Assembly: GCA_000209815.1 (NCBI GenBank)
Contig: FP929036.1
Span: forward strand, 1,807,906-1,871,905
Direction of reading: 5' to 3'
Origin: Butyrivibrio fibrisolvens 16/4
GTDB taxonomy: Bacteria > Bacillota > Clostridia > Lachnospirales > Lachnospiraceae
Length of the DNA: 64,000 nucleotides
Positions within the stretch are counted from its first letter, which is position 1; each line of letters opens with the position of its first letter. A model generated the notes under the pieces. It was not told the origin of the DNA, searched no databases, and saw only the letters and a program-made list of their open reading frames with translations. Below, piece by piece: positions 1 to 64,000 of this stretch. Both the position numbers and the translations under genes were made by a program.

Positions 1-585
1 ATTGATAGATTGAGTTCCAAAAACTAAAATAATAAAAAATAACTGATACTATGGTAGTTATGGCAAAAATAAGAACAAGAATATATAGTCTCTCCAGACC
101 TTCTTTTACCTTTATTAACTGAGAAAAACATTACCAAATGCAACCAGTAGCACATAACACAATACAATAAAAATATTGTAATCCATACAGATGGATGTAA
201 TAACTACAAGATAAAGGCTAAGCGCATTCGAAATACTATTATCAAATACTGTACTGCAAACAATTGGAAGTACTATAAACGGTGCAAAAAAATCTGGTGC
301 AACCATAGCACAAAGGAAAGTAATAATCCATGTAAGTAAGAGAACAAAGGTTATTTTTCCATATGTAATGTAATTAAACTCTGGAAGCGCCCCTTCTAAT
401 CTTTTCCTAATGAGAAGTAAAACAAACATAAAGAAGAAGCACGCATTAATTGCCATTATGCAAATAAATTTATCCATAAGTACCTGATTCATCAAACAGA
501 GTACCGTATTTGCGATAATGAAAATCAGTGCCATTCCAACGGTATATCCTATCCTAATCGAAGAAAACCTATTGGTGTATTTCAT
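1..585 (-). CDS. 7TM-HD (PgpH-like) membrane protein, partial, frameshifted
   Basis: The visible part is almost entirely hydrophobic, with about six or seven membrane helices, and begins [11 protein letters not shown]. The last part of the reading frame stops at 115-117, but the coding pattern continues in another frame as SQLIKVKEGLERLYILVLIF up to the window edge. Adding one A to the A5 run at 124-128 joins the two parts. Its position directly after phoH, overlapping the phoH stop by one base, is the usual place for the 7TM-HD cyclic-di-AMP phosphodiesterase PgpH (YqfF), whose catalytic HD domain would lie beyond the window. The large extracytoplasmic N-terminal domain of PgpH is absent, so this would be a short-form member. 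The assignment rests on synteny and membrane topology; no HD motif is visible. Confidence 0.5.
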
Positions 586-1585
586 TATTCTGCCCTTTTA
601 TTATTTTGTCCTTTTATTTTATTCTCTAGCTTTTTCTCGTGAGTTTCGTATGCATTAACTATCTTTTGTACAAGTGGATGTCTTACAACATCCTTTGAAT
701 CAAGGGTACAAATCTTTATATCATCAATGTTTTTAAGAACCTTCATAGCATCATCGAGACCTGATTTTTGCCCAGTAGGCAAATCCTTCTGAGTCTGATC
801 ACCGGTGATAACTGCTTTAGAACCAAAACCGATTCTTGTAAGGAACATTTTCATCTGTGCAGGTGTTGTATTCTGAGCCTCATCAAGAATTATGAAGGAA
901 TTATCAAGTGTTCTACCACGCATATAAGCAAGTGGTGCAACCTCAATAAGCCCCTTTTCCATGTTTCTCTGAAATGCCTCGGCACCCATAATTTGATATA
1001 AGGCATCATACAAAGGACGAAGATAAGGATCAACCTTGCTCTGTAGATCTCCAGGCAAAAATCCAAGCTTCTCTCCTGCTTCTATTGCAGGACGAGTGAG
1101 AATGATTCTGGAAACCTCTTCATTCTTGAAGGCAGTAATAGCCTTTGCCATAGCAAGATATGTCTTTCCTGTACCTGCAGGACCAACACCAAATACAATC
1201 ATATTATTTGTGATGGCATCAACATATTTTTTCTGTCCTAATGTTTTTGGAGCAACAGGCTTTCCTGTGGTGGTGTGACATATAATCTCGCCTCTGGCTT
1301 CAGAAACATCATGACTTTCTATTTTTCTTTTTCAATTGACATAACGTAATTTACATCCTGTGCTGTAATAATATTTCCTTTTTCTGAAAGAGCCAAAAGC
1401 TCGTCGATGATAATCTTTCCATGTTCAACTCTGTCTTTATCACCTATAAGCTTTATGGCATCATCTCTAAGAATAAAGGAGATATTCATCCCATTTTCAA
1501 TAGACTTAATATTTCTATCAAACTGACCAAAAATATTATCAATATGATCAGAGGGAATACTGATATTTAAAGTAAATTCATCCAT
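585..1585 (-). CDS. phoH: PhoH-family ATPase, frameshifted
   Basis: PhoH/YbeZ-like P-loop ATPase, an RNA-associated protein normally next to pgpH and ybeY. The C-terminal part carries Walker A GPAGTGKT (about residue 135 of the restored protein), [17 protein letters not shown], Walker [13 protein letters not shown] and [11 protein letters not shown]. The N-terminal part (1319-1585) is the KH-like PhoH N-domain, with [12 protein letters not shown] and the [10 protein letters not shown] segment. The two halves are in different frames. Adding one A in the runs at 1322-1332 gives [20 protein letters not shown] followed by [11 protein letters not shown], the normal family linker, and a protein of about 333 residues. 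The ATG at 1585 lies two bases after the pdp stop, which suggests translational coupling. TTG codons slightly upstream are less likely starts. Confidence 0.88.
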
Positions 1586-1586
1586 A

Positions 1587-2891: not shown

Positions 2892-2911
2892 AATAAAATA
2901 CCTCTTAAAAA

Positions 2912-3391: not shown

Positions 3392-3495
3392 GTATTTCAT
3401 TTTAGAACATTTAGTGTGAATTAACAATAGAATCACATAGATTTAGTGGTTTTAATTAGCTTTAGTTTTTACCAAAATCCCCTAAAAATAGACAA

Positions 3496-4787: not shown

Positions 4788-4788
4788 T

Positions 4789-6475: not shown

Positions 6476-9195
6476 CTATGCATTTATTAGTTCTTCAAAC
6501 TCTGATATTGCCATTCGAATTTCTCTAGGCTTTGTGCCCATTTCAGGACCTACAACACCCGCCTCAGCAAGCTGATCCATGATACGAGCCGCTCTATTAA
6601 AGCCAATCCTGAAATTTCTTTGCAGGTAGCCAATAGAACCCTTTTGATTTTCTATAACAAGACGTCCTGCCTCAGCAAACAATGGATCCCTGGAATTATC
6701 CGGTTCACCTGAAATGCTTACCGAGCCTGAACTTGTCTCAGAGTTTTGAATTTGAGCTTCGATTTCCGAATTATCGTCTGCAGGCTCATTGTTGTTCTTA
6801 AGGAAATCAACAACAGCACTGACTTCATCATCACTTACAAATGCACCCTGAATTCTAACTGGTTTAGATAGATTCTGAGGGTAATAAAGCATATCACCAT
6901 TTCCTAATAGATCCTCTGCGCCGTTCATATCAAGAATAACTCTTGAATCATTTCCGCTGGATACTGAAAAGGCAATTCTTGATGGAACATTTGCCTTGAT
7001 TAGACCTGTAATAACATTAACTGTAGGCTTCTGAGTGGCAATTATCAAATGAATACCTGCAGCACGGGCAAGCTGAGCAAGACGAACGATTGAATCCTCA
7101 ACATCTGCAGCAGCAACCATCATAAGATCCGCTACCTCATCAAGGATAATTACAATCTTTGGAATCTTGTCGCGTTTTGCCTCTGGAACCTCATCAGGCA
7201 ATGTATTCGTCTCAACCTTTTCATTGAAGCCTTCGATATTTCTAACTCCTGCAAGGGCAAGAAGTTCATAACGATCTGTCATCTCCTTAACTGCCCAATG
7301 AAGGGCACCGGCGGCCTTTTTAGGATCTGTAATAACAGGAAGTAACAGATGTGGAATACCATTGTATACTGATAACTCTACCATCTTTGGGTCAACCATT
7401 ATCATCTTAACCTCATCCGGGCTGGCATGATAAAGCATACTCATGATGATGGTGTTGATGCAGACAGACTTACCCGAACCTGTAGCACCAGCAATAAGAA
7501 GGTGAGGCATCTTTTCGATATTTCCAACAATAACACTGCCTGCAATATCTTTACCTACACAGAAAGCAATCTTTGATTTATCTTCCTTGAATTTCTTAGT
7601 AGATACAAGCTCCTTGAAGGCAACCATTGATTTAACCTTATTAGGTACCTCGATTCCAATAGCAGATTTACCAGGAATAGGTGCTTCTATACGAACATCA
7701 GTAACAGCAAGGCTAAGCTTAATATCATCTGCAAGATTAACAACCTTTGATACACGTGTACCAACAGCAATTTCCAGCTCATATCTGGTAACAGACGGAC
7801 CTAAAGTAACCTCTGTAACCTTGGCCTGAACACCAAAACTACTGAGAGCTGTTTCAAGCTTGTTTGCCATTTCAGCAAGATATTCTTTTGAATCTCCACC
7901 ATTTTTCTTTGCATCCTTAAGCAAAGTAAGCGGTGGGAACTTGTATGGCTTTTTAGGCTTTTGTTTATCTGCATCAATAGATGCTCGAAGTGTTTCAGAT
8001 GAATTCTCTATTTCATCAGCTGAAGACATAGATGGCTTTGCAGTGCGTGTAACTTCTGGCTCTGTCTTTGCATTTGCCTCCATCTCCTCCATAAGAGCTG
8101 CGCCCTTAAATGAAATACTGCTTGTTTTAGGAAGCACTGGCTCTGGTACAACAGGAGCTGCCACCGGAGTAGCCACTGGAATATCATCAGCAGGGGCCAC
8201 TGTTTCCTTAAATGCATGTGCACTCTTAGATTTTCTATCACCAGATTTAAGACGATGTCTGCTAGTCTTAGTGATTTCCATATCCTCTTCCCCAGCAGCC
8301 ATATTAAAGCGTATTTCGTTAACATCTTCTGTTGGTGCAGTGGAAGTAGCCATATTAGGCATAAGTGTAGTATCTGAAGTGACACCAGAATACTTTCTAT
8401 CTCTGCGATTTCCGTCATTTTGCATTCTCTGCTGACGTTCTAATTCTTTTCTTTTTCAATTTTATCTATAATAGCCTGTCTGTCAGAATTAAATCTTGTT
8501 TGATTAGCTTCTCTTTCCATAAGCTGACGCTCTCTGCGGGCACGTCTCTTCTCTGCCGCTCTGTCAGCGTGATATCTGGAAGATTTCTGAACTTTATCAA
8601 AGGCAAATCTCTCGATGATAATGATAGTACATACAATCATAGCTATAAGAACTATGAGATAGGCTCCTAAAAGCCCAAAGCTGTCATTGATACCAAAAAC
8701 AATACTGCCGCCAACAAGACCACCTCCGTAGTGTCTTTCCTTGGCGAATGAAAAAGCTTCCAACGGAACAAGAATGTTTTGTCCGTTGATAATCAATTCA
8801 ACAAATGCACTGCCAAAAATAAGCAGAACAAAACCAGCTACAACCTTGGCAATTGCAACTTTATTTCCGTAATTTGAAATTATAAAAAATGCTGAAAAAG
8901 CTACCATGAATGGCAGGACATACTGAATAATGCCAAATACTCCAAATAAGAAATCAGCAACGGCATTACCAGCCACTCCACCTATTCCAAAGTTACTAAT
9001 GCAAAGTAAAATACATAAAGCCAATGAAGACCAAAGAATAATCTCCTTGGAAGAATCCTCAAAAAATGGATCTTCAAACTCAACTTCATCCTTTACCCTT
9101 TTAGTAGTCTTTTTCTTAGTGGAAGCTCTCTTAGCAGAGCTGCCTGACCTGGTATTAGATTTTTTCCTAGAATTATTCTTCCCTTTTGTTGCCAA
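6476..9195 (-). CDS. ftsK: DNA translocase FtsK/SpoIIIE, frameshifted
   Basis: Double-stranded DNA pump for chromosome segregation at the septum. The N-terminal part (8440-9195) starts with a basic Lys/Ser/Arg-rich segment and four membrane helices. The C-terminal part carries the RecA-like motor: Walker [16 protein letters not shown], Walker [14 protein letters not shown] and [20 protein letters not shown], then the gamma winged-helix ([20 protein letters not shown]) that reads polar KOPS/SRS sites. The parts are in different frames. One extra A in the runs at 8447-8456 gives [19 protein letters not shown], yielding about 906 residues. The start is TTG at 9195, supported by GAGG seven bases upstream. 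Confidence 0.92.
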
Positions 9196-10773: not shown

Positions 10774-11501
10774 TTACTCGTCCCAATTATGATATACATT
10801 CTGAACATCATCATCTTCATCAAGAAGATCAAGTATTTTATTAATTTTGTATAAATCCTGCTCGTCTGTAAGCTCTACATATGTCTGAGGAATCATAGTA
10901 ACCTCAGCATCTGCCATAGGAATATTCTCAGCCTCAAGAGCTTCTCTAACAGCAGAGAAATCTTCTGGTGTAGTGTAGATTTCGAAGCAATCATCTTCCT
11001 CTGAGAAATCTTCTGCTCCAGCATCTAAGGCGATCATCATTAAATCATCAGCCTCCATAGAGCAATCCTCTTTAGAAACGATGATCTGTCCTCTATTATC
11101 AAACATAAATGATACACAACCTGGAGTACCAATGCTTCCGCCACCCTTTGTGAAAGCATTACGTACATTTGCAGCTGTACGGTTGCGATTGTCTGTAAGG
11201 CAATCTACGATGATTGCTGTACCATTTGGACCATATCCTTCATATGTAACTGACTCGTAATTTACAGCATCAGCATTACCTGCTGCCTTCTTAATACCAC
11301 TTTCGATAGTAGCATTAGGAACGTTATTAGCCTTAGCCTTTGCAATAACATCACGAAGCTTTGAATTATTATTAGGGTCTGGACCGCCTTCCTTAACTGC
11401 TACGGCAATCTCACGACCGATAATTGTAAAAATCTTACCCTTTGCAGCATCATTCTTTTCTTTTTGTGCTTAATATTAGCAAATTTTGAATGTCCTGACA
11501 T
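10774..11501 (-). CDS. yebC: YebC/PmpR-family DNA-binding protein, frameshifted
   Basis: YebC family proteins act as transcriptional regulators or, as shown more recently, ribosome-associated factors that relieve stalling at proline stretches. The N-terminus reads [14 protein letters not shown], then shifts frame. Adding one A to the A5 complement of T5 at 11461-11465 restores [15 protein letters not shown], followed by [31 protein letters not shown] and [17 protein letters not shown]-like segments, then the acidic C-terminal domain (10774-11106). The restored protein is about 242 residues, normal for the family. AGAGG precedes the ATG at 11501. Confidence 0.9.
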
Positions 11502-11561
11502 ATATTTATATACCTCTTTTCTTATTTTAAATCTCAAAAAATTATATCAAAAACACAAGTC

Positions 11562-12445
11562 TTATTCAACGTGACTTTTCCTACGAACATACACTTGTCC
11601 TATAACTTTTTCTGAGACATTTTTTACATAAAATATAAAGTTATCATCTTCTAGCTTGAAGGATGTGCCATCTTCTGGGATTTTTCCTAATAGAGAAATC
11701 AAATAGCCATTTAAAGTCTCATAATCCTCAGACAGATTCATTCCAAGTATTTCCTCCACTTCCTCTAATGTTGTGCTGCCGTCCATCATAAAGGAATCCT
11801 CAGTTCTCACCTCTATAGAAGCTTCTTCCTCATCATGCTCATCCTCGATATTACCAACTATTTCTTCAAGTATGTCCTCAAGTGAAAGAATACCTGATAC
11901 CTGACCATATTCGTCCATAACAATGACCATATGGCGTTTCTTAGACTGCATCTTAGCAAAAAGTGTATTAATACCGTGAGTTTCAGGCACAAATTCAGGA
12001 ACAGACATTAAATCCTGCAAATCCTTTACCTTAACATCATCAACATCTTTATCAAAATACGTAAGAATATCTTTTATATGAAGAATACCGATGATATTGT
12101 CCAAATCATCCAGATAAACAGGATAACGGCTCATATTATTATCATTTATAAATGAAATGGCCTCACGTAAAGTAAGCTCGCCATCAATAGCTACTATGTT
12201 TTTTCTGTGAGTCATAATATCTTTTACATCAGTATCAGAAAACTCAAAGATATTTTGAATCATAGCAGCCTCAGAAGCAAGAATATTACCATCTTCATGG
12301 CCCTCGTTAACAAGGGAGATTACATCCTCCTCAGTAACATTTTCCTGTTTGGATTTTCTATATAGGACAATTATTCCTATCAGCTCTCCAATAGCCAAAA
12401 TTATTAAAAAACAATTAAAATGTAGGGGCTGGACCCGTCTTCCAT
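11562..12445 (-). CDS. CBS-pair / CorC-HlyC domain protein, frameshifted
   Basis: A short-form member of the hemolysin C/CorC family, linked in some bacteria to divalent cation export. A single N-terminal membrane helix is followed by two CBS domains (IMTHRKNIVAIDGELTLREA; HMVIVMDEYGQVSGILSLEDILEEIVG) and a C-terminal CorC/HlyC transporter-associated domain (DGSTTLEEVEEILGM). The full DUF21 membrane domain of larger relatives is absent. The ATG at 12445 has a strong AAAGGAG site. The first 12 codons (MEDGSSPYILIV) run into a stop unless one T is added to the T6 complement of A6 at 12406-12411, which gives VFLIILAIGELIGIIVLYRK. The restored length is about 294 residues. Confidence 0.82.
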
Positions 12446-14046: not shown

Positions 14047-15962
14047 CTATATACTACTGATTTCTTCCCACTGTTGATATAAGTCGTCTAGTTTAGCATT
14101 AATATCGTTCTGTTTCGCTGTTAATTCATTTAATTTTGCTGAATTTGTCATATTCTCAGGCTTAACAAATTCCTCGTCAATAGCAGCTTTTTCTGCTTCT
14201 AACTTTTCAATTTCTTCTTCTATTTTTGAAATGCGATTCTGAAGCTTTCTCTTCTCAGCTTCGATACGCTTTTGTTCCTTAAAATCAAGCTTTGCAGCAG
14301 TTGCCTCCTGAGAAGCACTAGCATTCAATGAAGACGATACAGCCCCTACGCCAAAAAGCTGCTCTTTTTAGCAATATAATCATCATAATTTCCAAGATAT
14401 TTTGTAAGTCCTCCAGCAGAAAGCTCAAGGATAGTATTTGCAGTTTTATTTACAAAATATCTGTCATGGCTAACATATAATAGAGTACCATCATATTCAT
14501 TCAAAGCCTCTTCCAGCATCTGTTTCGAATCCATATCAAGGTGGTTTGTAGGCTCATCAAGAATAAGTAAATTTGACTTTGAAAGCATAAGCTTTGCAAG
14601 TGAAACTCTACCTCTTTCTCCACCGGACAAATCACTGATACGCTTGAACACATCATCCTCTGTGAACATAAAGGCAGCAAGAGTATTACGGACCTTTGTC
14701 TCTGTAAGGAATGGATAAGCATCGTGAAGCTCACTAAAAATAGTATTAGATTCTGTTAATCCCTGCTGTTCCTGATCATAGTAGCCTACAGTTACATTGG
14801 CCCCGAAGCGAATCTCTCCTGACTCAAAATCAGTAAGACCATTTATACATTTAAGGATTGTAGTCTTGCCAGTTCCATTATCTCCTAGAATTGCAATCCT
14901 ATCACCCTTATGAACCTCAAAGGATAAATCTGTAAAGATATTTTTATCATCGTATGATTTGGTAACGTGAGAAAAATCTAATACATCCTTGCCGCTTTCC
15001 TTCTCGATTTCCAGCGTGAGTCGCATCTTTGGCATGTCCTTATCAGGAGCATCCATAACTTCCATCTTATCAAGTGTCTTCTTTCTACTTTCAGCACGCT
15101 TAATAGATTTTTCCCTATTAAATGACTGGAGCTTTTCAATAACAGCCTTCTGATGCTCTATTTCCTTTTGCTGCTTTTCATAGGAGCGCTCATAGGAAAG
15201 CTGATTAAGCTCCTTTTGAGCAACAAAAGAAGAATAATTACCTGTGTAAACTGTTGTCTTTCCATATGATAAATCAACTACATGGTCTGCCATCTTATCA
15301 AGGAAATATCTATCGTGGGCAACAATTACAACAGCCCCCTTATAAGATGCAAGATAGCCCTCTAACCACATAATAGAATTTAAATCCAAGTGGTTAATAG
15401 GCTCATCCAAAAGAAGTAAATCTGGTGTAGAAGCTAAAAGACGTCCAAGGCTGACACGAGTTTTCTGACCGCCAGACAGCTCGTTCATACTCTTTGTAAG
15501 GTCGTCTCCCTCAAAGCCAAGTCCCTTAAGGATACCTACTGCCTCTGAACGGAATGTATAGCCACCCAGCAAATCAAACTGATGCTGAAGCTTGTGATAG
15601 CTTTCCATAAAGGCTTCCATTTCAGATTGGTCTACCGAACTCATCTGAAGCTCCATGTCAGAAAGACGCTTTTCCATTGCAAGTAAATCTTCTCTGGCAG
15701 AAAGGACTGTGTCTAAAATATTGTTGCCAAAGGAATCCTCCTGGTACTGAGCCAAGTAACCCATGGTGGCATCCTTCTTTAGAGTAACCTCTCCGTCATC
15801 TGCAGGAAGCTCCCCAACGATGATTTTTAGAAGTGTAGACTTTCCTGTACCATTATTGCCGACAATAGCTACCTTTGAGCCCTCATCAACAGTAAATGTA
15901 GCATCTTTAATTATGGAATCCTCTCCAAAGGATTTATATATGTGTGAAACATTTAATAACAT
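14047..15962 (-). CDS. ABC-F family ATPase, frameshifted
   Basis: Duplicated-ATPase, soluble ABC-F protein of the translation-factor/ribosome-protection type. Each half has Walker A (GNNGTGKSTLLKIIVG; GDNGTGKTTILKCING), signature LSGGQKTRVSLGRLL or LSGGERGRVSLAKLM, and Walker B LLLLDEPINHLD or LLILDEPTNHLD. The linker between the halves is rich in Lys/Arg. The C-terminal coiled-coil arm is in another frame; adding one T (complement of A5 at 14353-14357) gives KKSSFFGVGAVSSSLNASAS and joins it, for about 638 residues. The start is the ATG at 15962 with AAGG upstream. The subtype (EttA/Uup/YdiF-like) is not decided; the C-terminal arm suggests a Uup/YdiF-like member. Confidence 0.92.
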
Positions 15963-15974
15963 AATATTTTCCTT

Positions 15975-16004
15975 AAAAAAAGCGCCCGACAAAATGCCAG
16001 GCGC
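15975..16004 (-). terminator. terminator after pnp
   Basis: GCGCC pairs with GGCGC (with further CTGGC/GTCGG pairing inside) and is followed by seven T in the leftward direction. It sits just upstream of the ABC-F ATG, so that gene needs its own promoter or readthrough. Confidence 0.85.
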
Positions 16005-18283: not shown

Positions 18284-18549
18284 TTACTTTCTTAAGCCAA
18301 GACGCTCAATAATTGAACGATATCTCTCAATGTCTGTGTTCTTAAGGTATGCAAGAAGGTTTCTTCTCTTACCAACCATCTTCATCATACCACGACGTGA
18401 ATGATGATCACCTGGGTTAGCCTTAAGGTGCTCTGTAAGCTCTGAAATACGAGCTGTAAGAACTGCGATCTGAACCTCTGGAGAACCTGTATCACCAGCT
18501 GTTCTAGCGTACTCATTGATAATAGCCTGCTTCTTTCTTTTGTAATCAT
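18284..18549 (-). CDS. rpsO: 30S ribosomal protein S15, frameshifted
   Basis: Primary-binding small-subunit protein. Read from the ATG at 18549 (GGAGG upstream), the first codons MITKE are followed by a frame break. One extra A (T3 at 18534-18536 or T4 at 18538-18541 on the plus strand) restores [20 protein letters not shown], then [38 protein letters not shown] and [18 protein letters not shown], ending LGLRK. The restored 88 residues are exactly the normal S15 length. S15 is highly conserved and normally retained intact, so the break is almost certainly a sequence error. Confidence 0.95.
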
Positions 18550-19367: not shown

Positions 19368-20641
19368 TTATCTATAAATAATATCCTCTCTGCCTGGACC
19401 ATTTGAAACCATTGTGATTGGGAATCCAATTTCCTTTTCAATGAATTCAATGTAATTACGGCAGTTTTCAGGAAGATCTTCGTATTTTTGATTCCACGAA
19501 TATCTGTCTTCCATCCTGGAAGTGTCTTGAGAACTGGTTTAGCCTTTTCAAGCTTTGATGTAACAGGGAAGTCTGTAGTAACTTCGCCATCTATTTCATA
19601 ACCAACGCATACTGGAATTTCATCAAGATAGCCAAGTACATCAACTACAGTAAAGGCTACATCTGTTGTACCCTGCATTCTGCAGCCATATTTTGAAGCG
19701 ACGCAATCGAACCAGCCCATACGACGTGGACGACCTGTTGTAGCGCCAAACTCTCCGCCATCTCCGCCGCGACGTCTAAGCTCATCTGCCTCATCACCAA
19801 AAATCTCTGAAACAAAAGCACCAGCGCCTACAGCTGATGAGTACGCCTTACATACTGTAACCACCTGCTTGAGCTCCTGAGCAGGAATACCAGCACCAAT
19901 GCATCCATAAGGAGCAAGTGTAGATGAAGATGTAACCATAGGGTAAATACCATGATCTGGGTCCTTAAGTGTACCAAGCTGTCCCTCAAGAAGAATAGTC
20001 TTATTCTCTTTGATTGCATTCCAAAGAAATGCTGAAGTATCACATACATATGGTGCAATCATATCTCTATACTGGTGAAGAGTATCAAGAAGCTCCTCTG
20101 GAGTAAGAAGTGGCTTGTGATAAAGATGCTCTAAAAGAACATTTTTCTGATCGCATGTACGAACTACCTTTTCCTTTAAAAGCTCTTCATCAAAAAGCTC
20201 CTGAACCTGGTAGCCAATCTTTGCATATTTATCTGAGTAGAAAGGAGCAATGCCGCTCTTAGTAGAACCAAAAGAAGCCTTTCCAAGTCGCTCCTCCTCA
20301 TACTGATCAAAAAGGATATGATATGGCATAACAATCTGTGCTCTGTCAGATACTAAAATCTTAGGTGCAGGTACGCCTTTATCAACGATTGATTTAATCT
20401 CATTTATAAGGATAGGAATATTAAGAGCTACACCATTTCCAATAATGCTGGTAGTGTGACTATAAAATACTCCAGAAGGTAATGTGTGAAGAGCGAACTT
20501 ACCATAATTATTAACTATGGTGTGACCAGCGTTAGCTCCTCCCTGAAAACGAACAATAATGTCTGCATTCGCAGCCATCATGTCAGTAATCTTGCCTTTT
20601 CCTTCGTCGCCCCAATTGGCGCCTACAACTGCTTTAACCAT
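19368..20641 (-). CDS. purA: adenylosuccinate synthetase, frameshifted near the 3' end
   Basis: GTP-dependent condensation of IMP and aspartate in AMP synthesis. Motifs include VVGANWGDEGKGKITDMMA, GGANAGHTIV, EGQLGTLKDPDHGIYPMVTSSS and GATTGRPRRMGWFD. The last segment shifts frame at the T5 run 19495-19499; adding one A on the coding strand restores RGIKKYEDLPENCRNYIEFI, IGFPITMVSNGPGRED and IIYR, ending at the TAA at 19368. The restored length is 424 residues, as expected. Without the repair the protein runs on into nonsense to 19298. Confidence 0.96.
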
Positions 20642-23750: not shown

Positions 23751-24891
23751 TTACTCTTTTTTTCTCATTATTACGTTTTTTGGCAGCATAGAAAGTATTG
23801 AACTCTTTAGATTATCGCCGCCTACAGTCATAAGATGTTTGAAGACATCGATAACAATAGCCTGATTTTCTGGATCAAGTGATTGTATCTCTTTTGTTAC
23901 TGCAGCTATTGATTTCACCTTATTTCCAGTGATGTGTGACATCTTTGTAGCCCCAGAATTAGCCAGCAACGTAAAAAATGCATCACCAAAAGCTGCTTTG
24001 GTGTCGTAATCAAAGGTCTCTGACCACTCTTTCACCACCTCATCAACTTTAAGGGAAAAATTAGAAACGCAATCTACGGTAGAAAACCTGTTACGGGTTA
24101 CCTGCCAGCTAAATAAATCATGTTGATTGATTCCCTTTGTATTGGACTGTACAACAGTGGTTTTTGCCTTAGTGTACATCATCATTCCAATAATAGATTC
24201 ATTAGGAATGATTTTATGCACTCTTTTGATGACTGATTTGTATTCGCTGGTTTTAAGAATCTCTGGGATGAACCCCGGACCATCATTATTATATATTTCA
24301 ATAATATTATCCTTAATATGAGGCTTGCAAAAGGCTGATCCATATAAAGCAAAGCTTCCACCCTTGGAATGGCCTCCAATTCTAAGTGGCTTCATTGTGC
24401 GAGAGAAATTCTTATTCAAATATTCTACCGCCTTCAGCTGGCCTCCTGTGCCTGGTGAAAAGCACATATTAAAATCTTCTTTCCAGCCTATAAGAGAGTC
24501 ATCTGTACCTCTAAAGGCAACATATATGGTGCCATCTGGCAAATAAAATGTACAAGCCGCAAACTGAGACTGGGTTTCACCATCGATTTCATTCACGAAA
24601 CCCGCAAGCTTTATTCCACCAAATCTCTTAGACCCCGCCATATTGCGCAACAAAAAAGGAGCGCGCTTAGTAAGTGAAGACTTTTCTAAAAGCTCCTCCT
24701 CTGTATATTTTGCAAAAACAAATTGCAAACATCTTCTATTGACATTTTTCTTTTAAACCTGGTCCTGGAACGATATCATCGAAGGCTGAATAAACAAGTT
24801 CTGAAAAAATAGCATTATCCACTTCGTTAAAAGGATCGATATCAAAGGGAACGTCACCTCTCCAAACCAGATAATCTTCAATATTCGCCAT
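23751..24891 (-). CDS. Mbeg1-like alpha/beta hydrolase, two frameshifts
   Basis: Predicted lipase-like hydrolase (Mbeg1-like family, DUF2974). The N-terminus MANIEDYLVWRGDVPFDIDP and FNEVDNAIFSELVYSAF is typical. The catalytic core has the nucleophile elbow IGGHSKGGSFALYG (Ser of GHSKG) and FRGTDDSLIGWKEDFNM; the AFCKP and DLFSWQV segments follow. Two breaks occur: one A missing at the T5 run 24745-24749 and one T missing at the A5 run 24714-24718. Repairing both gives KEKMSIEDVCNLFFAKYTEE. The restored length is about 380 residues. No signal peptide is visible, so it is probably cytoplasmic. The substrate is unknown. Confidence 0.82.
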
Positions 24892-25646: not shown

Positions 25647-26287
25647 CTAGCTAAATAATATTGCAATAAGATTAATCAAACCATGGGCTATTATGCACAT
25701 TGAAAGCCTTTTATTTTTCACATACATAATGCCAAGAATTGCCCCAATCAAAACTGCATATATAAATTGTACTATATTATTATGTATTATACCAAAACAA
25801 ATTGTAGATAAAAACACAGCTTGTACAGGGCCGTACCATAAACAAAGCTGCCCAGCTATAATTCCACGCATTAAAAGCTCTTCTAAGATAGGAATAATAA
25901 GGGCATTGCACAATATTTTTATTAATATATCTCCATCTGTAAGGGTATTCTGAGCCTGAGAAAAGTTCTGAGAGTGAGTTACAAGACCACTATGAGTAAG
26001 AATGATATTTAGAATCACTCCCACAGCTACCACAGCAAAAACCCACACAAAATATTTAATCAATTCTCTTTTTCTTTAATGGAAGCAGGTATAAGCTTAG
26101 GAACACTTTTGTAAATAATCCACATAGGAACCAAACAAAATAATGCTGCAAACAGCAGGCATAAAAGCCTGCCATATTTTGCAGCATATAAATCCATAAG
26201 CAATGCTCCTCCCAACTGATATACAATAAAGTATACCAGTAATGGATATGTAATTGATATTACACGATTTGTTTTAATGCGACTCAA
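25647..26287 (-). CDS. CPBP family intramembrane protease, frameshifted
   Basis: CAAX-like intramembrane glutamic protease (CPBP/Abi family), used in bacteria for peptide maturation or self-immunity. After the break it shows the hallmark PILEELLMRGIIAGQL (EExxxR), FGIIHNNIVQFIYA and CIIAHGLINLIAIL. The N-terminal part (26060-26287) supplies two membrane helices. One missing A at the T5 run 26069-26073 separates the parts; repair gives SIKEKRELIKYFVWVF. The start is uncertain: the first in-frame codon is TTG at 26287, overlapping the HAD gene end, with GAGGTG about 13 bases upstream. The restored length is about 213 residues. Confidence 0.85.
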
Positions 26288-26926
26288 TGTAATCTAACAC
26301 CTCTTCAGGAAAATCAAAAACATCAATTGCTCCATGTTCTATCATCTCTTCTTTCGACCCAAAGCCCCAGGAAACACCGATGCAGTCTATACCGTAAGCA
26401 CTAGCACCTTCTGCATCAAATTTAGTATCGCCAATGAGAAGAGTTTCTTCTTTTTGTGCCAAGGAGCTCTACTAAAGCAAAGCTTTATAACCTGCTCCTT
26501 AGTATCGATTTTAGCATCCATGGTTGCACCACATATTTCTGTAAAGTACTTATCAATGCCAAGTGAACTTAAAATCTTTTTAGCTGTAGGCTCTGGCTTT
26601 GAAGTGCAAACAAACAGACAATAGCCTCTTTTTACAAGAGCCGCAAGCAGTCCTTCTACACCTTCAAAAACATCAACATTAAGGCAACCATTTTCTTTGT
26701 CGTAGTAATTACGATATGTGGCAACAGCACCTGCGAAATCTTCCTGCTTAATACCTAAGTAATTAGGAAAAGAATATGTAAATGGAGGGCCTACACATTT
26801 TCTAAGAGTGGCATAATCTGGGATATCATAGCCATATTTTTCAAGAGTGATTTTTAAACCAGTGATAATACTGGGAGCAGAATCTATTAATGTACCATCT
26901 AAATCAAAATATATATTCTTTATCAT
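26274..26926 (-). CDS. HAD-family phosphatase (phosphoglycolate phosphatase-like), frameshifted
   Basis: Haloacid-dehalogenase phosphatase. Motif I is FDLDGTLIDSAPSI, motif II VCTSKPEPTAKKIL, and motif IV is GDTKFDAEGASAYGID; the cap domain lies between about residues 18 and 85. The C-terminus is out of frame. One missing A at the T5 run 26451-26455 splits SRAPWHKKEETLLIGDTKFD, the expected continuous sequence. The restored protein has about 217 residues. It overlaps the parC start region by four bases and so is translationally coupled to parC. Substrate specificity within the family (Gph, PpaX, beta-phosphoglucomutase) cannot be read from sequence. Confidence 0.88.
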
Positions 26927-31645: not shown

Positions 31646-32137
31646 TTAATCTACATGCAAAACAATTTGCCCTAGCTTTCTAGTCTGAGGCACATCTATA
31701 ACCCGCTGATTGATGCTGCCTCTCCACTTTGCCTGTAAATCTATCTTATCAATTTCAAATTCTCCGTCAACCAGAACATCCACATATTCCATAATTTCCA
31801 GAGATTTTATTTCCTCGTAAGTAAATCCTGTGTAGAGCCAGACGGTCTTGCCGGGAAACCTCTCCCTAATTTCCCGGGCAAGCTCCGTCACTTCCTTACG
31901 ATTTCCTGGAAACAATGGGTCTCCTCCGCTGAATGTAATTCCGGAAATATAGTCTCTGGACAGTATTTCAAATAATTCATCCTTGGCAGCCTGATCAAAT
32001 TTCAAACCACCATCTGGGTCCCATGTAATAGGATTCTGACAATCCTTACAGTGATGGTCACAGCCTGAAACCCAAAGCACAGCTCTAAGACCATCGCCAT
32101 TAAGCATATCATCTTTAGTTATATTATGATAATTCAT
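31646..32137 (-). CDS. nrdG: anaerobic ribonucleotide reductase activase
   Basis: Radical-SAM enzyme that installs the glycyl radical on NrdD. The 163-residue protein has the cluster motif SGCDHHCKDCQNPITWD (CX3CX2C), then TFSGGDPLFPGNR and the SAM-binding VWLYTGFTYEEI segment. Its ATG overlaps the nrdD stop as ATGTAATG, so the two are translationally coupled. Confidence 0.96.
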   Translation of the reverse strand: MNYHNITKDDMLNGDGLRAVLWVSGCDHHCKDCQNPITWDPDGGLKFDQAAKDELFEILSRDYISGITFSGGDPLFPGNRKEVTELAREIRERFPGKTVWLYTGFTYEEIKSLEIMEYVDVLVDGEFEIDKIDLQAKWRGSINQRVIDVPQTRKLGQIVLHVD

Positions 32138-37224: not shown

Positions 37225-37422
37225 TTATCATATCCCTCTCTTTCACTTCAATAACATTTGCAGGACAAGCCTGCGCACATAATCCACACCCTACGCAGGA
37301 GTTCTCATCAACCACCGCGAAACATCCTTTGTAAATAGATATTGCCTGTCTTGGACATTGTAATCTACATACTCCGCAGGCTACGCAGCTTGCAGTATTT
37401 ACATTTGCTTTTTCTTTGCCAT
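37217..37422 (-). CDS. 2x[4Fe-4S] ferredoxin, frameshifted
   Basis: Small bacterial ferredoxin overlooked in a simple frame scan because of a break. From the ATG at 37422 (AAGGAT upstream) the codons read MAKKK, then one A is missing at the T5 run 37409-37413. Repair gives MAKKKANVNTASCVACGVCR, LQCPRQAISIYKGCF, CVGCGLCAQACPANVIEV and a short charged end, 68 residues in all. Both CxxCxxCxxxCP-type clusters are complete. It is first in the operon with the membrane 4Fe-4S protein and is the likely soluble electron carrier. Confidence 0.9.
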
Positions 37423-42431: not shown

Positions 42432-43411
42432 ATGAATATTAATCAAATAGCAAAACTTGCAGGCGTATCCCCAGCAACAGTTTCCAGATATCTAAACAAT
42501 GGCTACCTAAGCGAGGAAAAGCGCCAGGCAATCGCAAAAGTAATAGATGAGACTGGATATATTCCATCTACCCAGGCTCAAACTCTCAGAACCAAGAAAA
42601 CCAAGATTATTGGGGTTATTATCCCTAAGATTGATTCGGATTCCATTTCACAAGTTGTGGCTGGTATTGGCGAGGTTCTTAATGAAAAGGGCTATAAAAT
42701 GCTTTTGGCCAACACAGATAACCATGATGAAAAGGAAATAGAATTTATTAATACATTCAAACAGAACATTGTTGATGGCATCATCCTCCTTGGAACTACA
42801 CTTACACCTAAGCATAAAAAGCCCTAAAAGACCTTACAATCCCATATGTAGTCTTAGGACAACAGACTGATATTTCCACCTGTATATTCCATGATGATTA
42901 CACAGCAGCATATGAATTAACAGATTACATCATAAAAAAAGGTCATAAAAATATTGGCTACATTGGTGTTACTGAAAAAGATATTGCTGTAGGTGTAAAT
43001 AGAAGGAAAGGCTTTCTTGATGCCCTGGAAAAGCACAATATCAAGCTTCCTGCCAAGCTCATCAAGACCGGCTCATTCTATATGGATAATGGCTATGAAA
43101 ATGCTAAGGCTCTACTTAGCCAGAATAAGAATATTGATGCTATTTTATGTGCTACAGATACTATAGCTTTAGGTGCTATCAAATACCTAAACGAAAATAA
43201 AATAAAGATTCCTGGCGATATTGCTGTTGCCGGCTTTGGGGAAAGCAAGCCATCTTCCATCCTTTCTCCTAGTCTAACTACAGTACATTTCTATTACAGA
43301 GAATGTGGAATTGAAGGGGCTACTTTCCTACTTGATAAAATCGCCAAGCCTGATATCCCAGATAAAGCAATGAAACTGGGCTTTGAAATAATAAAAAATC
43401 AGTCTGTTTAA
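42432..43411 (+). CDS. scrR: LacI-family sucrose operon regulator, frameshifted
   Basis: Repressor of the LacI/GalR family. The N-terminal HTH is MNINQIAKLAGVSPATVSRY, with LNNGYLSEEKR and the hinge LRTKKTKIIGVIIP. The periplasmic-binding-type effector domain follows, with GIGEVLNEKGYKMLLANTD, GYIGVTEKDIAVGV and AVAGFGESKPSSI. The frame breaks at the A5 run 42816-42820. Adding one A gives TPKHKKALKDLTIPYVVLGQ and restores about 326 residues. It is divergent from scrA, and operators O1-O3 lie in the shared region. Confidence 0.92.
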
Positions 43412-45044: not shown

Positions 45045-45526
45045 TTATTTTTTACGACCGCTTTCAATAAGCTCCTTTTCAAAAGCCTCAGGATTCTTTA
45101 AGTAGTAGTCCTGATGTTCTTCTTCAGCTGGATAGAAAGACTTAAATGGCTCTAAAGCCACCTGAACTTTTTACCTGATTCCTCTTCCAAAGCCTTTATT
45201 CTACTCTCAGCAATCTCCTTTTCTTCATCATTTTGATAGTAGATAGCCAGAGTATAAGAAAATCCCTTGTCGATGTACTGTCCTTCACCATCAAATGGAT
45301 CTACATTAGCAAAGTAAATATCTAGAAGCTTATCAAAAGAAACATTGTCCTCCTCGTAGGTAAGTTCGATTGTCTCTCGATGACCTGTCTTTTGAGCTTT
45401 TACATCCTTGTAAGAGGGATTAACTTCATCCCCACCAGAGTAACCGCATACAACTGAGTCTACTCCATAAATTTTGTAAATAGGTGTAACACACCAAAAG
45501 CAACCACCTGCAAAATACGCTTTCAT
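45045..45526 (-). CDS. msrA: peptide methionine-S-sulfoxide reductase, frameshifted
   Basis: Repairs methionine-S-sulfoxide in proteins. From the ATG at 45526, MKAYFAGGCFWCVTP holds the catalytic Cys9 in GCFWC; YSGGDEVNPSYKDVKAQKTG and HRETIELTYEE follow. The frame breaks at the T5 run 45168-45172. One added A gives GKKVQVALEPFKSFYPAEEE, HQDYYLKNPEAFEKEL and a Lys-rich end, for about 160 residues. No msrB is adjacent. Confidence 0.93.
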
Positions 45527-48730: not shown

Positions 48731-50049
48731 TCATTTCCCAATAATAGCGTATACGAAGTCACGCCCGTCTGATTGTACAATACGGGTCTTAACTTGTAAA
48801 GCTGACTCCAGCTCTGACAAGGTTATATCATCAAGGAAAACCTCTTCCTGTGCACGAAGCATAGTGCAGGATAAAAGAAGATTATCTCCTAAATCTCTAC
48901 CCTTTAGCTGTGAAATAAGGTCCTGTCCTGTGATAAGACCTGAGACTGTAATCTCTTCACCAAAGAATTCATTAGTGATTGGAACAACCTCCACAGTAAC
49001 CTTATTAAACTTTTCAGTGATTAACTCTCCCAGCTCCTTCATAAATGGAGCGGCTAATTTACCTGTAGCTATGGTAACCTTTCGACGCTTCATAAACAAA
49101 GGCTTCTTGATATCTTCTAATGCATCTAAAACCTCTTCCTTAAGAAGGCGAAGCATTCCAACACCATTTTCCAGCTGGATAAATCCATCATATCTGTCTG
49201 CTTCTGGGAGTGGACGTCCTGCTAAAATATACCACTCATCTGAAGCCTGAACAAAATGATTGCCAACCTTTTCCATGGCAATATCCTGCCACTTTTCAAT
49301 CTGATCTATAACAGCTCCCGCTTCCTCTGCTGTGTATGTTCTAAGAGGGAACAGTCCATCTCTGAATTTTGTGATACCTACAGGAACAACAGACATAGAT
49401 CTCATAACAGGTGCAAAGGAAAGTAAATCGCCTATTGTTCTATCAAGCTCTGGTCCATCATTTAATCCAGGACAAGAAACCACCTGTGCATTCATAGGAA
49501 TCTCTGCTTCGTAAAGCTTTCTGATTTTATCTAAAATATCTCCAGCAAAACGGTTGTGCAAAAGCTTCATTCTAAGCTCTGGATTAGTAGCATGGACTGA
49601 AATATTAATTGGTCCAAGCTTGTAAGCAATAATTCTATCTAAATCCGCCATTTTCATATTTGTCAGAGTAACATAATTGCCCTGTAAAAAGAAAGACGGG
49701 TATCATCATCTTTAAAATAAAGGGTCTCTCTCATTCCTGGTGGCATTTGGTCAATAAAACAAAATGCGCACTTATTGGAGCAGGATTTGTAATCATCCAT
49801 AAGACCATTGCAGAAAATTACTCCAAGATCCTCCCCTTCTTCTTTCTTTACAAAAACAGAACTGGTGGTACCATCCTCGTGAAGAAGCTCCACGGTAATA
49901 TCCGCATCATCTGAATAATAATGATAATCAAAGATATCTACCAGCTCTACATTATTAATTTTTGTAATAATATCTCCAGGTGTAAGCCCAGCTTGCTCTG
50001 CAGGGCTGCCTTCCATAACCTGTTTAATTTTATGACTTGAATTTAACAT
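48731..50049 (-). CDS. DUF512 radical-SAM/PDZ protein, frameshifted
   Basis: Conserved clostridial protein with an N-terminal PDZ-like domain (VMEGSPAEQAGLTPGDIITK), a radical-SAM-type Cys motif CSNKCAFCFIDQMPPGMRET, and a C-terminal DUF512 domain with HATNPELRMKLLHNRFAGD and TGKLAAPFMKELGELI. The frame breaks at the A5 run 49686-49690. One extra T gives TRLSFLQGNYVTLTNMKMAD, joining both halves to about 439 residues. The function is uncharacterised. It overlaps the yraN end by seven bases and ends 22 bases before der, so it may belong to the same unit. Confidence 0.9.
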
Positions 50050-53358: not shown

Positions 53359-54044
53359 CTATTCAATATTGTCTACAAGACCAAAATCGCCAAATGGGTA
53401 TACCCTAAGCCATGCCTTGCCTACAATATCATCTCCCTTTATATTTCCAACAGCTTCAAATCTTGAATCTGTACTGTTGTTACGGTTGTCACCAAGAACA
53501 AAATACTCATCTGCCCCAAGAAGAATCTCTGAGCTGGCCAAACCAGCATTAAGAATAGTTTCAGTGCCATAATTTTCCTGAAGAAGCTCGCCGTTTACAT
53601 AGATGTTTCCGGCTCCATCAATATAGACATGCTCACCAGGAAGCCCGATGATACGCTTGATGTAATAGGTGTCATCCTCGTACTGATAAGGAAATACAAC
53701 CACATCAAAACGCTCTGGATTATGAATTCTATAGCTTATTTTATCTACAATAAGATTATCGCCATCTGTAAGTGTGTCCTCCATAGATGAACCACTAACT
53801 ACAGTACGCTGACCTATGAACTGTGTAATAAGAAATACTACCAAAAGCATACTAAAACGTTAACAACAACACTTACTATTTCTTTGATTACCACTTCTTT
53901 TGTGATTTTTTCTTCTCCATCTTCCTCCTGGTCCTTAGCCCTGTTCGGACGAGCCTGAGATGGTGAATTATTTACATTTCTTCTAGCATTTTCAATATCT
54001 TTTTTAATCTGTTCTTCTTCGTTAAAATCGATTATGTTGTTCAT
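53359..54044 (-). CDS. lepB: type I signal peptidase (copy 1), frameshifted
   Basis: Cleaves signal peptides at the outer membrane face. The N-terminal part (54044 to 53838) is acidic and charged, ending in a membrane helix (VVIKEIVSVVVNVLV). The catalytic part has SGSSMEDTLTDGDNLIV (Ser nucleophile), PERFDVVVFPYQYED, YYIKRIIGLPGEHVYID (Lys base) and FVLGDNRNNSTDSRFEAVG. Adding one T at the A4 run 53854-53857 joins them as VNVFSMLLVVFLITQF. The restored length is about 228 residues. A second copy lies upstream at 54895-55490. Confidence 0.94.
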
Positions 54045-54046: not shown

Positions 54047-54885
54047 TTATGGCCTTTCAAGTGATATATTTCCTAAGCTTCCATTTCTAAATTCATCGAT
54101 TAAAACTAATGATGCCTTGTCAAAATCAAGCTCAGAACCTTTTTAACAAAATTTCTTTTAGATGCTATCTCAGAGATTATCTCGTGATTAACAGCCTCTT
54201 CATTTACATCATATCGTTTATTAAGAATACCTGGATAATTAGCCTTAAGAAAATCAGCCAGCTCCAATGCAAGCTCTCTGGTTTCTATGATGGCATCATT
54301 TATAGAGCCAATAAATGCCAAATGAAGACCTACTGTGTTATCCTCAAACTTTGGCCAAAGAATACCTGGAGTATCTAATAGCTCTACCGATTTATTAAGC
54401 TTTATCCATTGTTTGCCCTTTGTAACACCAGGCTTGTTTCCTGTCTTTGCAACTGCTCTTCCAGCAAATGAATTGATGAATGTAGATTTACCAACATTAG
54501 GAATACCAACAACCATTGCTCGTACTGGTCTGTTTTTGATACCACGTTTTCTATCTCTTTCGAACTTTGCAGCGCAAACCTCATCAAGTGTAGCCTGCAC
54601 GCCCTTCATATTCTTTCTATCACGGGAATCAAGCTCTACGCAATAAAAGCCCTGGGACTTAAAGTATTCTTTCCATTTCTGATTTACGCCCTTGTCTGCA
54701 AGATCTGATTTGTTCAAAAGAATCAGTCTAAGCTTTCCATTAGCAAGCCCATTTATATCAGGATTGCGGCTGGAAACCGGACATCTTGCGTCTATAACTT
54801 CTATTACTAAATCTATAAGCTTAATATCTTCCTGCATCTGACGCTTTGCTTTCGTCATATGCCCTGGATACCATTGAAACTCCAT
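54047..54885 (-). CDS. rbgA: ribosome biogenesis GTPase RbgA (YlqF), frameshifted
   Basis: Circularly permuted GTPase for late 50S assembly. It begins MEFQWYPGHMTKAKRQMQED and shows the permuted order: DARCPVSSRNPDI, LNKSDLAD (G4) first, then VGIPNVGKSTFINSFAG (G1) and LLDTPGILWPKFEDN (G3). The C-terminal ANTAR-like helical domain is broken at the T5 run 54140-54144. Adding one A yields KKGSELDFDKASLVLIDEFR, ending near GNISLERP, for about 279 residues. Signal peptidase genes flank it on both sides. Confidence 0.95.
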
Positions 54886-54894: not shown

Positions 54895-55490
54895 CTAAAA
54901 TGGATATTTAATCCATATTCTTCCTAAAATATCTTCACTGGCAACAAAGCCCACACTTTCGTATCTGGAATCCTCTGATGAATTACGATTATCTCCAAGG
55001 ACGAAATACTGATCCTCCATAAGAGTAATAGGTGTAGCTGCGATACCTGGATTCTCGATACGCTCTACCTCAAGATTTTCTTTGTATAATTCATCATTAA
55101 TGTATATGCGGCCATTATCGATATAGATAGTGTCCCCAGGTGTAGCGATAACTCTTTTAACGCTATAGCTGGCATTAACATTAGATTTTGGCTTAAATGC
55201 AATAACATCTGATTGTTTTGGCTGAGAGAACTTGTAAGCAATAGTGTTTACAAGTAATATATCGGACGTTTGGTAGGTTGGCTCCATAGATGCATTGGCA
55301 CATTCTACCTGTTTTCCAAAGGAAAGAACAACCAAATAGGCAAGGCCTACTACAGCCAAAAATTCCAAAAAGAAAATGCTGACGTATTTTACTTTATCAA
55401 AGTCTATTTTTCTGCGTCTTCTTCTGAAGCTAAGACCATCTTTTTCTTAAATAAGTGACCATTATTTAATCTTCTATTTGATAAAAACAT
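54895..55490 (-). CDS. lepB: type I signal peptidase (copy 2), frameshifted
   Basis: Second signal peptidase. The N-terminus is basic (MFLSNRRLNNGHLF, then after repair DGLSFRRRRRKIDFDK), followed by a membrane helix (YVSIFFLEFLAVVGLAYLVV) and the catalytic part: CANASMEPTYQTSDILLVNT (Ser nucleophile), SYSVKRVIATPGDTIYID (Lys base) and FVLGDNRNSSEDSRYESVG. One A is missing at the T5 run 55441-55445. The restored length is about 198 residues from the ATG at 55490. Its N-terminus differs strongly from copy 1, suggesting different membrane or partner interactions. Confidence 0.93.
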
Positions 55491-59819: not shown

Positions 59820-61350
59820 TTATCTCTTCATCTTTGGATCGAAAGCATCACGAAGGCCGTCACCAATAAAGTTAAATGCAAGTACTGTAAGGAGAATAAG
59901 AATACCAGCTGGGATCCATACGAATAAGTAGTTTGTCATAACGTAAGAATCATTAACTGCATTGATAATATTTCCCCAAGAAGCTGCTGGGTACTTAACA
60001 CCAAGTCCAAGGAATGAAAGTGTAGACTCAGCAAGGATAACTGAACCAATATCCATTGATGCAAATACAACAAGCTGAGGAATAACATTAGGGATAAGGT
60101 GCTTAAATACACGTCTCTTAACACTAATACCGCATGCTTCACAAGCTGTCATAAATTCCTGCTCTCTGAGGGATAAAATTTGTCCTCTGATGATACGAGC
60201 AATACCAACCCATCCGATGAGACCCATAAGGATACACAGATAGAAAATACGCACACCAGCTCCTACCTTGTAAAAGTCCATGATTGAACCGATGATAAGG
60301 TAAAGTGGCATTGAAGGTACACAGTAAATGATATCTACAAGTCTCATAAGAAGTGTATCTACCCAACCTCCAAAATAACCAGCGAAACCACCTACGATAA
60401 TACCAAGGAAGAGCTCGATTGCTACTACTACGAAACCGATAAGAAGAGAAATACGACCACCATACATAAGACGAGCAAGAAGGTCCATTCCGTTTGCATC
60501 AGTACCAACCCAGTGTTTTGAAGAAGGACGTTCGAACTGATTAATAACGCTTGTATTCTTATATTTAGTAATCTCATACTGACCATTTGTATTTGCTACC
60601 TGATATTCCTCATCATTAAAATCAAATGATTCAGCATTATCAGCGATTGCTTTAACAACTGCCTCTCTGAAATCAATAGTAATAGAAACACCATTTTCTA
60701 CAGCATTGATACTGTATGATGTTACATAAGCTACATCTTCGCCTGAAGCATTTCTAACCATTGTACCAGAGCCATGCTCCTCTACTGTGTATGACTCACC
60801 ATTATAGTCAAAGCTTGTTTCGTCATTAGCTCTTGCAGCAACCATAGCAGCTGTAAGACCAGACTCTACTAAACCACCTTCTGGAGCATAAGCCTGAAGC
60901 TTGCATACGTAAGCAAGGCTCTCGCTTCCATCAGCACTGGCAATTTCAAATATATCATTATTTAACTCATTAAGAGCAAATGTAGAACCATCACGAGTCT
61001 CGATTGTAGGCTCTTTTTAACAAGTGCACGGATAAGTTTTGAGCTGATATCCTTTGGAAGCTCAACACCGTCATTTGCAAAAACTTGGTACTCAGTAATC
61101 TCTGTTGCACCAGCATAATCCTTTTTCATCTCCTCAGATGTGTAAAAAACCTCACTCTGAGAATAAGGAACAACAACACCACCTAAAAAGGCAAATAAAA
61201 CATACAAATAATAATAACAAGACCTGTAATTGCAAGCTTGTTTCTAAAGAAACGCTTTGCAACCATCATTCCAGGAGAAAGTACCTGAACGCGGTTAGCA
61301 TCATCAAGCGCAAGCTCTTCGCTATTATTTACATTCTTTTCTTCACTCAC
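59820..61350 (-). CDS. oppC: oligopeptide ABC permease OppC with large insert, two frameshifts
   Basis: Inner-membrane permease. The N-terminus (MSEEKNVNNSEELAL, GTG start at 61350 with GGAGG) and first helix lead into a roughly 200-residue extracytoplasmic insert, then the usual permease core of about 290 residues (GTDANGMDLLARLMYGGRIS, EAA loop EQEFMTACEACGISVKRRVF). The insert has a repeated FDYNGESYTVEE / FDFNDEEYQVAN-like motif. Breaks occur at the T5 run 61014-61018 (one A missing, repair VKKEPTIETRDGSTFALNEL) and the A4 run 61197-61200 (repair CMFLFAFLGGVVVPYSQ). The restored length is about 510 residues. Confidence 0.9.
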
Positions 61351-62530: not shown

Positions 62531-62564
62531 TTTCCTAGGGCTATTATACACAAGCCCTAGGAAA
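62531..62564 (-). terminator. intercistronic hairpin after oppA
   Basis: TTTCCTAGGGCT pairs with AGCCCTAGGAAA (12 bp), with a 10-base loop and AT-rich DNA after it but no long T run. It may partly terminate or protect the oppA transcript, giving more binding protein than permease. The remaining gap 62354-62530 has a weak TACCTTTA/TAAAGGTA hairpin and no gene. Confidence 0.6.
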
Positions 62565-62579
62565 TAAAGAAGACCTAAA

Positions 62580-64000
62580 TTAATTCATCTCAAGTGTAGC
62601 AAGATCATCCATCCAAATCCAGAATGGTGTTGGATCCTTTACAAGAGAATCAATATTAACTCTCTCTGATGAGTAAAGAACTGCATTCTGTCTCTGGTAT
62701 GTAGGAATTTCTACAGCATAATCTACGATGTAATCAAGACATTCCTTATAAACAGCCTTTCTGTAAGACTGATCTTCACTAGTTCTAGCATCCTCAATAA
62801 GAGCATCGAGCTCTGGCTCGTTTACTTCATAGTGAGTAGTACCACCCTTGCTGTGGTATACCTGATACATATCAGGATCTGGAGTAGCACCCCAAGCTGC
62901 ACACCAGATTTCTGCAGTCTTTGCATTAAGAGCATCCCAAAGTACTGAAGAATCTGAAAGGTCATTAATTACGAGTTCGAAACCAATCTTTGCAAGTGAC
63001 TCCTTAGCACCTGTAAGAATACCAAATGCTGGGTGGTCACCATTTCCACCACCTGGAATCATAGCTTCGTATGAAAGCTTTGCGCCAGCAGGAGCTGCTG
63101 TAAGCTTACCATCTGTAACTGTATAACCAGCTGCCTCAAAGTAACCAAGTGCTGCATTAAGAGCTGCTTCGTACTTCTCGTCATCTGACATACCGTCAGT
63201 GTAGATTGGATCACCATTTACATCCTTAGAGAATGCAATTTCGTAATCTGGATCAGACTTCTGTGGAGCTGCCCATGATGAATTTGAAATAGGATACTGA
63301 ATTACTTCAGCAGCATCTCCATAGTATGAATCAATAACTACATCACGGTATGCAGCAACAACTGTTGCGATAGCCTTACGAAGGTTCTTAGATTCCTCTG
63401 AACCCTGGTCATTACCAACCTTAACATTCTTTGCACACATACCGATGTAACCATAACCAAGGTTATCAGCAAGTGTAGCTGTAAGAACATCACCAGCAAG
63501 CTCTCCATTAGAGTTCTCACCAGAAATCTGCTCTGCTGCTGCCTTAGACATTGAAGGCTCAGCTAAATCGATTGTTCCCTGAAGTACACCTGGAATCTTA
63601 TCAGCTTCCTGTGTCTCCTTGAACTGAAGATACTTAATCTTTGGAGCACCAAGGAAATAATTTTCGTTTGCCTCAAGATAAGCAATCTTGTTCTTGTACT
63701 CTACGAACTTGTAAGGACCAGCACCAAGTGGCTGTGTTGTCTTTGAACGAATAAGTGAAAGATCGTTCTTAGGGAAACCGAACTTGTTGTTATCATAATC
63801 ATAAAGTGACTTATCACCATAGTAGTGCATTGGAGCGATTGCTGTACCAAGCTTCTCAATAGCTGGAGCTGAGAACTCTTCTACAGTAATCTGCATTGAG
63901 TAATCACCAGTCTTAACAATACCCTCGATGTGGTCTGCAGACTCACCAGTCTCAACACCTGTTGTAGACATTGCTACTACATCTGCTGGGAATGAATCAG
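62580..64000 (-). CDS. oppA: oligopeptide-binding protein OppA, partial
   Basis: Family 5 extracellular solute-binding lipoprotein, seen from its C-terminus. The last 470 or so residues are visible and the frame stays open to the window edge (SFPADVVAMSTTGVETGESA). Motifs: QPLGAGPYKFVEYKNKIAYL with YFLGAPKIKYLQF, and DPDMYQVYHSKGGTTHYEV near the end. The signal peptide and lipobox are beyond the window. Confidence 0.94.
   Translation of the reverse strand, partial: DSFPADVVAMSTTGVETGESADHIEGIVKTGDYSMQITVEEFSAPAIEKLGTAIAPMHYYGDKSLYDYDNNKFGFPKNDLSLIRSKTTQPLGAGPYKFVEYKNKIAYLEANENYFLGAPKIKYLQFKETQEADKIPGVLQGTIDLAEPSMSKAAAEQISGENSNGELAGDVLTATLADNLGYGYIGMCAKNVKVGNDQGSEESKNLRKAIATVVAAYRDVVIDSYYGDAAEVIQYPISNSSWAAPQKSDPDYEIAFSKDVNGDPIYTDGMSDDEKYEAALNAALGYFEAAGYTVTDGKLTAAPAGAKLSYEAMIPGGGNGDHPAFGILTGAKESLAKIGFELVINDLSDSSVLWDALNAKTAEIWCAAWGATPDPDMYQVYHSKGGTTHYEVNEPELDALIEDARTSEDQSYRKAVYKECLDYIVDYAVEIPTYQRQNAVLYSSERVNIDSLVKDPTPFWIWMDDLATLEMN

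Follow-up and report, generated by a model that had tools for sequence, protein, structure and literature searches.

Single-base losses at short A/T runs break reading frames across a Pseudobutyrivibrio genome assembly and point to consensus errors

We have analysed a stretch of 64,000 nucleotides (hereafter "the window"), positions 1807906-1871905 of the genome G000, which is a single contig of 3164379 bases (3.16 Mb) from Pseudobutyrivibrio, a genus of rumen commensals. An initial annotation had listed 23 sites in this window at which a reading frame is broken and one added A or T in a short run restores it, and had put them down to uncorrected homopolymer errors. The sequence observation is confirmed and is correct in nearly every detail. 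The proposed cause is supported as well: the breaks are almost certainly errors of the assembled consensus, in which homopolymers were under-called in unpolished long reads, rather than biology of the organism. We favour this reading because the orthologues are whole in relatives, because the losses at A/T runs amount to one base each, because all five compared parts of the genome are affected, because deletions far outnumber insertions and depend on run length, and because genes needed by a living cell are among those broken. Such a homopolymer artefact is ordinary and already described, and it is no real biological feature. Its importance lies in a quality warning, namely that gene counts, pseudogene calls and claims of absent genes for G000 are unreliable.

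Results

Three relatives (G009, G003 and G005), collinear with most of the window at a DNA identity of about 74-90%, were used for comparison. Frame breaks were detected by tblastn with the relatives' proteins as queries, independently of the listed sites; for all but two displaced sites (see below), the break is placed in this way to within roughly 15 bases. A comparison with close relatives had been proposed as a check, and it bore the list out, since for 22 of the 23 sites one or more of the three genomes have a whole orthologue in a single, unbroken frame. The tblastn comparison retrieved 17 of the sites as deletion-type frame breaks. No extra break was found in the window by tblastn, except for one insertion-type call near 24735, seen against G003 only, which is explained by two deletions listed there that sum to an apparent insertion.

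The remaining sites were approached in other ways. At 12406 and 55441, the relative's protein matches one frame with its start and another with its body, the former match being only 9 of 18 residues in each case. At 18531 (rpsO) and 34238 (nrdD), DNA alignment shows the window to be one base shorter than all three relatives; the comparison of start and body gave no frame change at these two sites, being uninformative so near the start. At site 124, where each of the three relatives gave a single span, the break is followed past the left end of the window by more losses that restore the frame. When the window is extended to the left, the 397 residues of the G005 protein align to 396 codons with the same frame at both ends, and the part between these in-frame ends is garbled, with stops; this combination implies several small, close-set losses totalling three bases. 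At 37409 no orthologue was present at that place in G009, G003 or G005, and the only support there comes from the reasoning on frames and from the similarity of the downstream frame to ferredoxin.

All 23 coordinates given in the initial annotation were inspected in the sequence, and two are displaced by about 8-12 bases: there is no run at 19495-19499, the break lying near 19487-19490, and the one placed at 14353-14357 lies near 14364-14367. When the alignments were judged by eye, ten sites had a counterpart in at least one relative in which the run was likewise uninterrupted but longer by one base, and at the others the relative's run was interrupted or the alignment was unclear. A/T runs in the window reach at most 7 bases, and most of the listed sites are runs of 4-5. 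It is true that no event was seen at a GC run, as had been claimed, but this carries little weight in a window where C runs of 5 occur five times and G runs do not exceed 4. Housekeeping genes are indeed affected, among them those for ribosomal protein S15, adenylosuccinate synthase, YlqF/RbgA and two signal peptidases.

Split genes in the window numbered 13 of 49 against G009, 14 of 49 against G005 and 12 of 44 against G003. Beyond the window, ten 20-kb stretches of G000 were taken, of which four were set against the homologous stretches of G009 and G005, the comparison with G003 covering the window. All four contained split genes (1 of 7-9, 2 of 10-12, 3 of 10 and 2 of 17-18 genes), so that the breaks are not local but present in five of five compared parts of G000. 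For the window and the four stretches together, split genes came to 21 of 95 with G009 as reference and 22 of 96 with G005, in totals that exclude comparisons taking G000's own frames as reference. Among the relatives themselves, split genes were found in 3 of 169 (G009 against G005), 0 of 168 (G005 against G009), 1 of 74 (G009 against G003), 0 of 74 (G005 against G003) and 0 of 75 (G003 against either G009 or G005); 21 of 95 differs from the control of 3 of 169 with a Fisher p of 7e-8. When the frames of G000 were taken as reference, ten split genes were called, all of them insertion-type (3 of 101 with G009 as target, 2 of 48 with G003, 5 of 101 with G005), which is the pattern that a shortfall in G000 would produce. 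None of these counts draws on the coding-potential frame model that was also trained.

In one of the sampled stretches (G000:C1:1000001-1020000), five deletion-type breaks are crowded into 1.7 kb of a single EAL-domain gene, which lies at about 8612-10281 and has a product of 637 amino acids in G005. The density of breaks in this gene is far above that elsewhere, and either genuine decay of the gene or a locally poor consensus could explain it.

After merging of places, 31 distinct breaks were counted in G000, 29 deletion-type and 2 insertion-type (binomial p 5e-7). One of the two insertion-type breaks is the call near 24735 in the window, the sum of two deletions. The other, at about 2495 in G000:C1:2700001-2720000, is the only one seen with both references and is not accounted for in this way. 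An A/T run of at least 5 lies within 12 bases of 19 of the 29 deletion junctions, compared with 9.7% of random places, and a run of at least 4 within the same distance of 23 of the 29, compared with 27.5%.

The dependence on run length was also apparent from A/T runs in coding DNA with two conserved bases on each side, counted in comparisons that share genes and are not independent. Against G009, G005 and G003, respectively, runs whose longer form is 3-4 were shorter in G000 in 2 of 1566, 1 of 1411 and 0 of 561 cases, runs of 5 in 2 of 100, 3 of 87 and 1 of 28, and runs of at least 6 in 7 of 25, 6 of 26 and 1 of 8. The opposite case, a longer run in G000, occurred 3, 4 and 2 times at 3-4 bases and 2, 0 and 0 times at 5 bases, but in no instance at 6 or more. 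Coding runs of at least 6 differed between relatives in 2 of 71 (G009-G005), 0 of 12 (G009-G003) and 0 of 9 (G005-G003), and coding runs of 3-4 differ in less than 1%. A count of intact six-base runs, likewise proposed as a check, can be read from these figures: most are intact (18 of 25 and 20 of 26) and about a quarter are one base short. One-base gaps in aligned coding DNA, given as window-lacking to relative-lacking, stood at 39:16 (G009), 43:26 (G003) and 49:17 (G005). The homopolymer spectrum of the window differs only mildly from that of the relatives, with a somewhat high ratio of 5-base to 4-base runs and a low ratio of 6-base to 5-base runs, a shift that is no more than suggestive.

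Discussion

A long-read base caller that calls short A/T runs one base too short would account for these observations; the shortfall, if uncorrected, would stay in the consensus, and each one would shift a reading frame. The technology was most likely nanopore sequencing not followed by short-read polishing, and the reads would be expected to carry the longer runs, the true runs being probably six bases long in most cases. The estimated contamination of G000 (3.59%) may in turn be inflated by split marker genes.

Similar losses have been described. Systematic nanopore errors left uncorrected are mainly homopolymer insertions and deletions that shift reading frames, and genomes built from R9.4 data with Racon-Medaka had 151-5298 pseudogenes (Homopolish, PMC8011154). 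An example given for Kastor had 23.3% pseudogenes before correction, and most of its deletion errors followed stretches of four to five identical bases, with A/T the most frequent (PMC12007338). The gain of R10.4 over R9.4.1 was credited largely to homopolymers (PMC9262707). The likeness of G000 to such nanopore-only consensus assemblies (PMC8011154, PMC12007338, PMC9262707) lies in short-homopolymer losses that shift frames; on the side of difference, its nanopore origin is inferred, and no event at a GC run was seen, in a window nearly devoid of long GC runs. Rumen chromosomes assembled from nanopore reads (PMC6785717) resemble G000 in habitat, in being single contigs and in insertions and deletions recognised through shortened predicted proteins (IDEEL). 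That data set has no established link to G000, and the name Pseudobutyrivibrio has 0 occurrences in the main text of the article. Among titles and abstract openings, no publication describing the G000 genome was found.

Several observations weigh against under-called homopolymers. Six of the 29 deletion junctions lack an A/T run of at least 4 within 12 bases, which may be due to imprecise placing. In non-coding DNA, one-base gaps showed no excess of losses in the window (19:20 with G009, 17:26 with G003 and 19:20 with G005, again window-lacking to relative-lacking); by argument, an excess of few events could be hidden there, as non-coding DNA is a small share and has real insertions and deletions of its own. 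Genes that are broken according to the initial list were slightly less similar to the relatives than unbroken ones (median similarities 0.925 vs 0.961, 0.895 vs 0.927 and 0.918 vs 0.957), a difference that is not significant (p 0.09, 0.13 and 0.23). Finally, mutS (G000:C1, near 1800344) is frame-shifted near residue 28, the rest being 94-95% identical to G009 and G005, and this shift would be consistent with a mutator as well as with the artefact.

Checks outside reading frames added little. Non-coding runs of at least 6 were shorter in G000 in 1 of 4, 2 of 4 and 1 of 2 cases and never longer, and the relatives differ from one another as well (1 of 17, 1 of 3 and 1 of 2). Ribosomal RNA (rRNA) was considered as a frame-free check, but the Rfam 23S and 16S models matched only G003 among the four genomes, and the 23S DNA of G003, used as a query, matched the three relatives (including G003 itself) but not the single contig of G000. 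The sampled stretches contain 3563 N, and the rRNA of G000 may be masked as N. Transfer RNAs, with none in the window and one in the ten sampled stretches, were too few for such a check.

It could be argued that G000 stems from a true mismatch-repair-deficient (mutator) lineage, in decay after the loss of single bases from its A/T runs. Loss of mismatch repair yields homopolymer insertions and deletions, the shifted mutS would fit, and the lack of a deletion excess among the gaps in non-coding DNA runs contrary to uniform sequencing error. Yet mutL is one open frame, and a break in mutS is itself likely if an error strikes a fifth of genes. A mutator would be expected to produce changes in both directions, whereas 29 deletions stand to 2 insertions, and to leave other disabling mutations, whereas the unbroken genes compared (34 with G009, 31 with G003 and 35 with G005) contain no in-frame stops. 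Nor is similarity to the relatives significantly lower in the broken genes. About a fifth of genes, including rpsO, purA and the YlqF/RbgA gene, would have to be dead at once, and the cell would have to survive the breakage of rpsO, purA, the YlqF/RbgA gene, two signal peptidase genes and nrdD together, a difficulty that a pseudogene account shares. We therefore consider a mutator lineage very improbable. We give just as little credence to its variant, in which a mismatch-repair-deficient Pseudobutyrivibrio is alive even though about a fifth of all its genes, among them rpsO and purA, truly lack single bases in A/T runs, and expresses these genes through widespread slippage at runs of only 4-5 bases. 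Were the shifts real, what is known of the maintenance of reading frames would be overturned; the evidence points elsewhere.

Rescue of real shifts by programmed ribosomal frameshifting or transcriptional slippage is less credible still. Most breaks do lie at A/T runs, and a combination of two shorter runs is named as a slippery site in one report (PMC3711429). However, a long slippery run of eight or more bases is absent, the A/T maximum in the window being 7 and most sites being 4-5, and the relatives read through these places in a single frame, so that a frame transition is not conserved. Ordinary pseudogenes in a local, decaying region hardly merit more belief, for although the genes do look broken, breaks of the same kind are spread over the genome, all four of the other compared stretches included; they strike housekeeping genes as well, and the unbroken genes are free of in-frame stops.

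Affected genes

Gene identities are based on NCBIfam and Pfam profile matches, above or below cut-off as given, and all genes lie on the minus strand unless stated otherwise. At the left end, the gene at 1..585 encodes a membrane protein of 397 amino acids with a weak 7TM-7TMR_HD match (Pfam, below cut-off); it is broken in the window and again past its left end, and is a single frame in the three relatives. It is adjoined by a PhoH-related ATPase gene (588..1585; NCBIfam, below cut-off) with one break. One break each was also seen in an FtsK-like DNA translocase gene (6479..9195; NCBIfam E 3e-135, below cut-off), in a YebC/PmpR-family regulator gene (10777..11525, over cut-off) and in an ABC-F family ATPase gene (14050..15992; NF000355, over cut-off), and the CBS/CorC-HlyC-domain protein gene at 11562..12445 (start approximate; Pfam match) is broken near its start.

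In rpsO (ribosomal protein S15; 18290..18549), the break falls within the first codons, and purA (adenylosuccinate synthase; 19371..20641, over cut-off) has one break. The gene of an Mbeg1-like protein (23778..24891; Pfam match) has two. Single breaks follow in a CPBP-type intramembrane protease-like gene (25650..26287, below cut-offs) and a HAD-IA family hydrolase gene (26277..26926; TIGR01549, over cut-off), and nrdD (anaerobic ribonucleotide reductase; 32137..34259, over cut-off) is broken near its start. On the plus strand are a YaeI-like phosphodiesterase gene (35139..36205, below cut-off), with one break seen with two relatives, and a LacI-type regulator gene (42432..43408, below cut-offs), with one break seen with one relative. 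The small 4Fe-4S ferredoxin-like gene lying between them (37225..37419, extent approximate) is the one for which the break was claimed in the initial annotation and the three relatives have no orthologue at that place.

Further to the right, msrA (methionine sulfoxide reductase; 45048..45526, over cut-off) has one break seen with one relative, a TIGR03279-like radical SAM protein gene (48734..50049, below cut-off) has one, and an OppC-like ABC transporter permease gene (59823..61350, below cut-off) has two. A signal peptidase I gene (53362..54044) and the gene for the ribosome-biogenesis GTPase YlqF/RbgA (54050..54885) have one break each, and a second signal peptidase I gene (54895..55490, start approximate) is broken near its start, all three being over cut-off. 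In this segment (53362-55490), the YlqF/RbgA GTPase gene lies between the two signal peptidase I genes, and the order of the open reading frames is the same in the three relatives.
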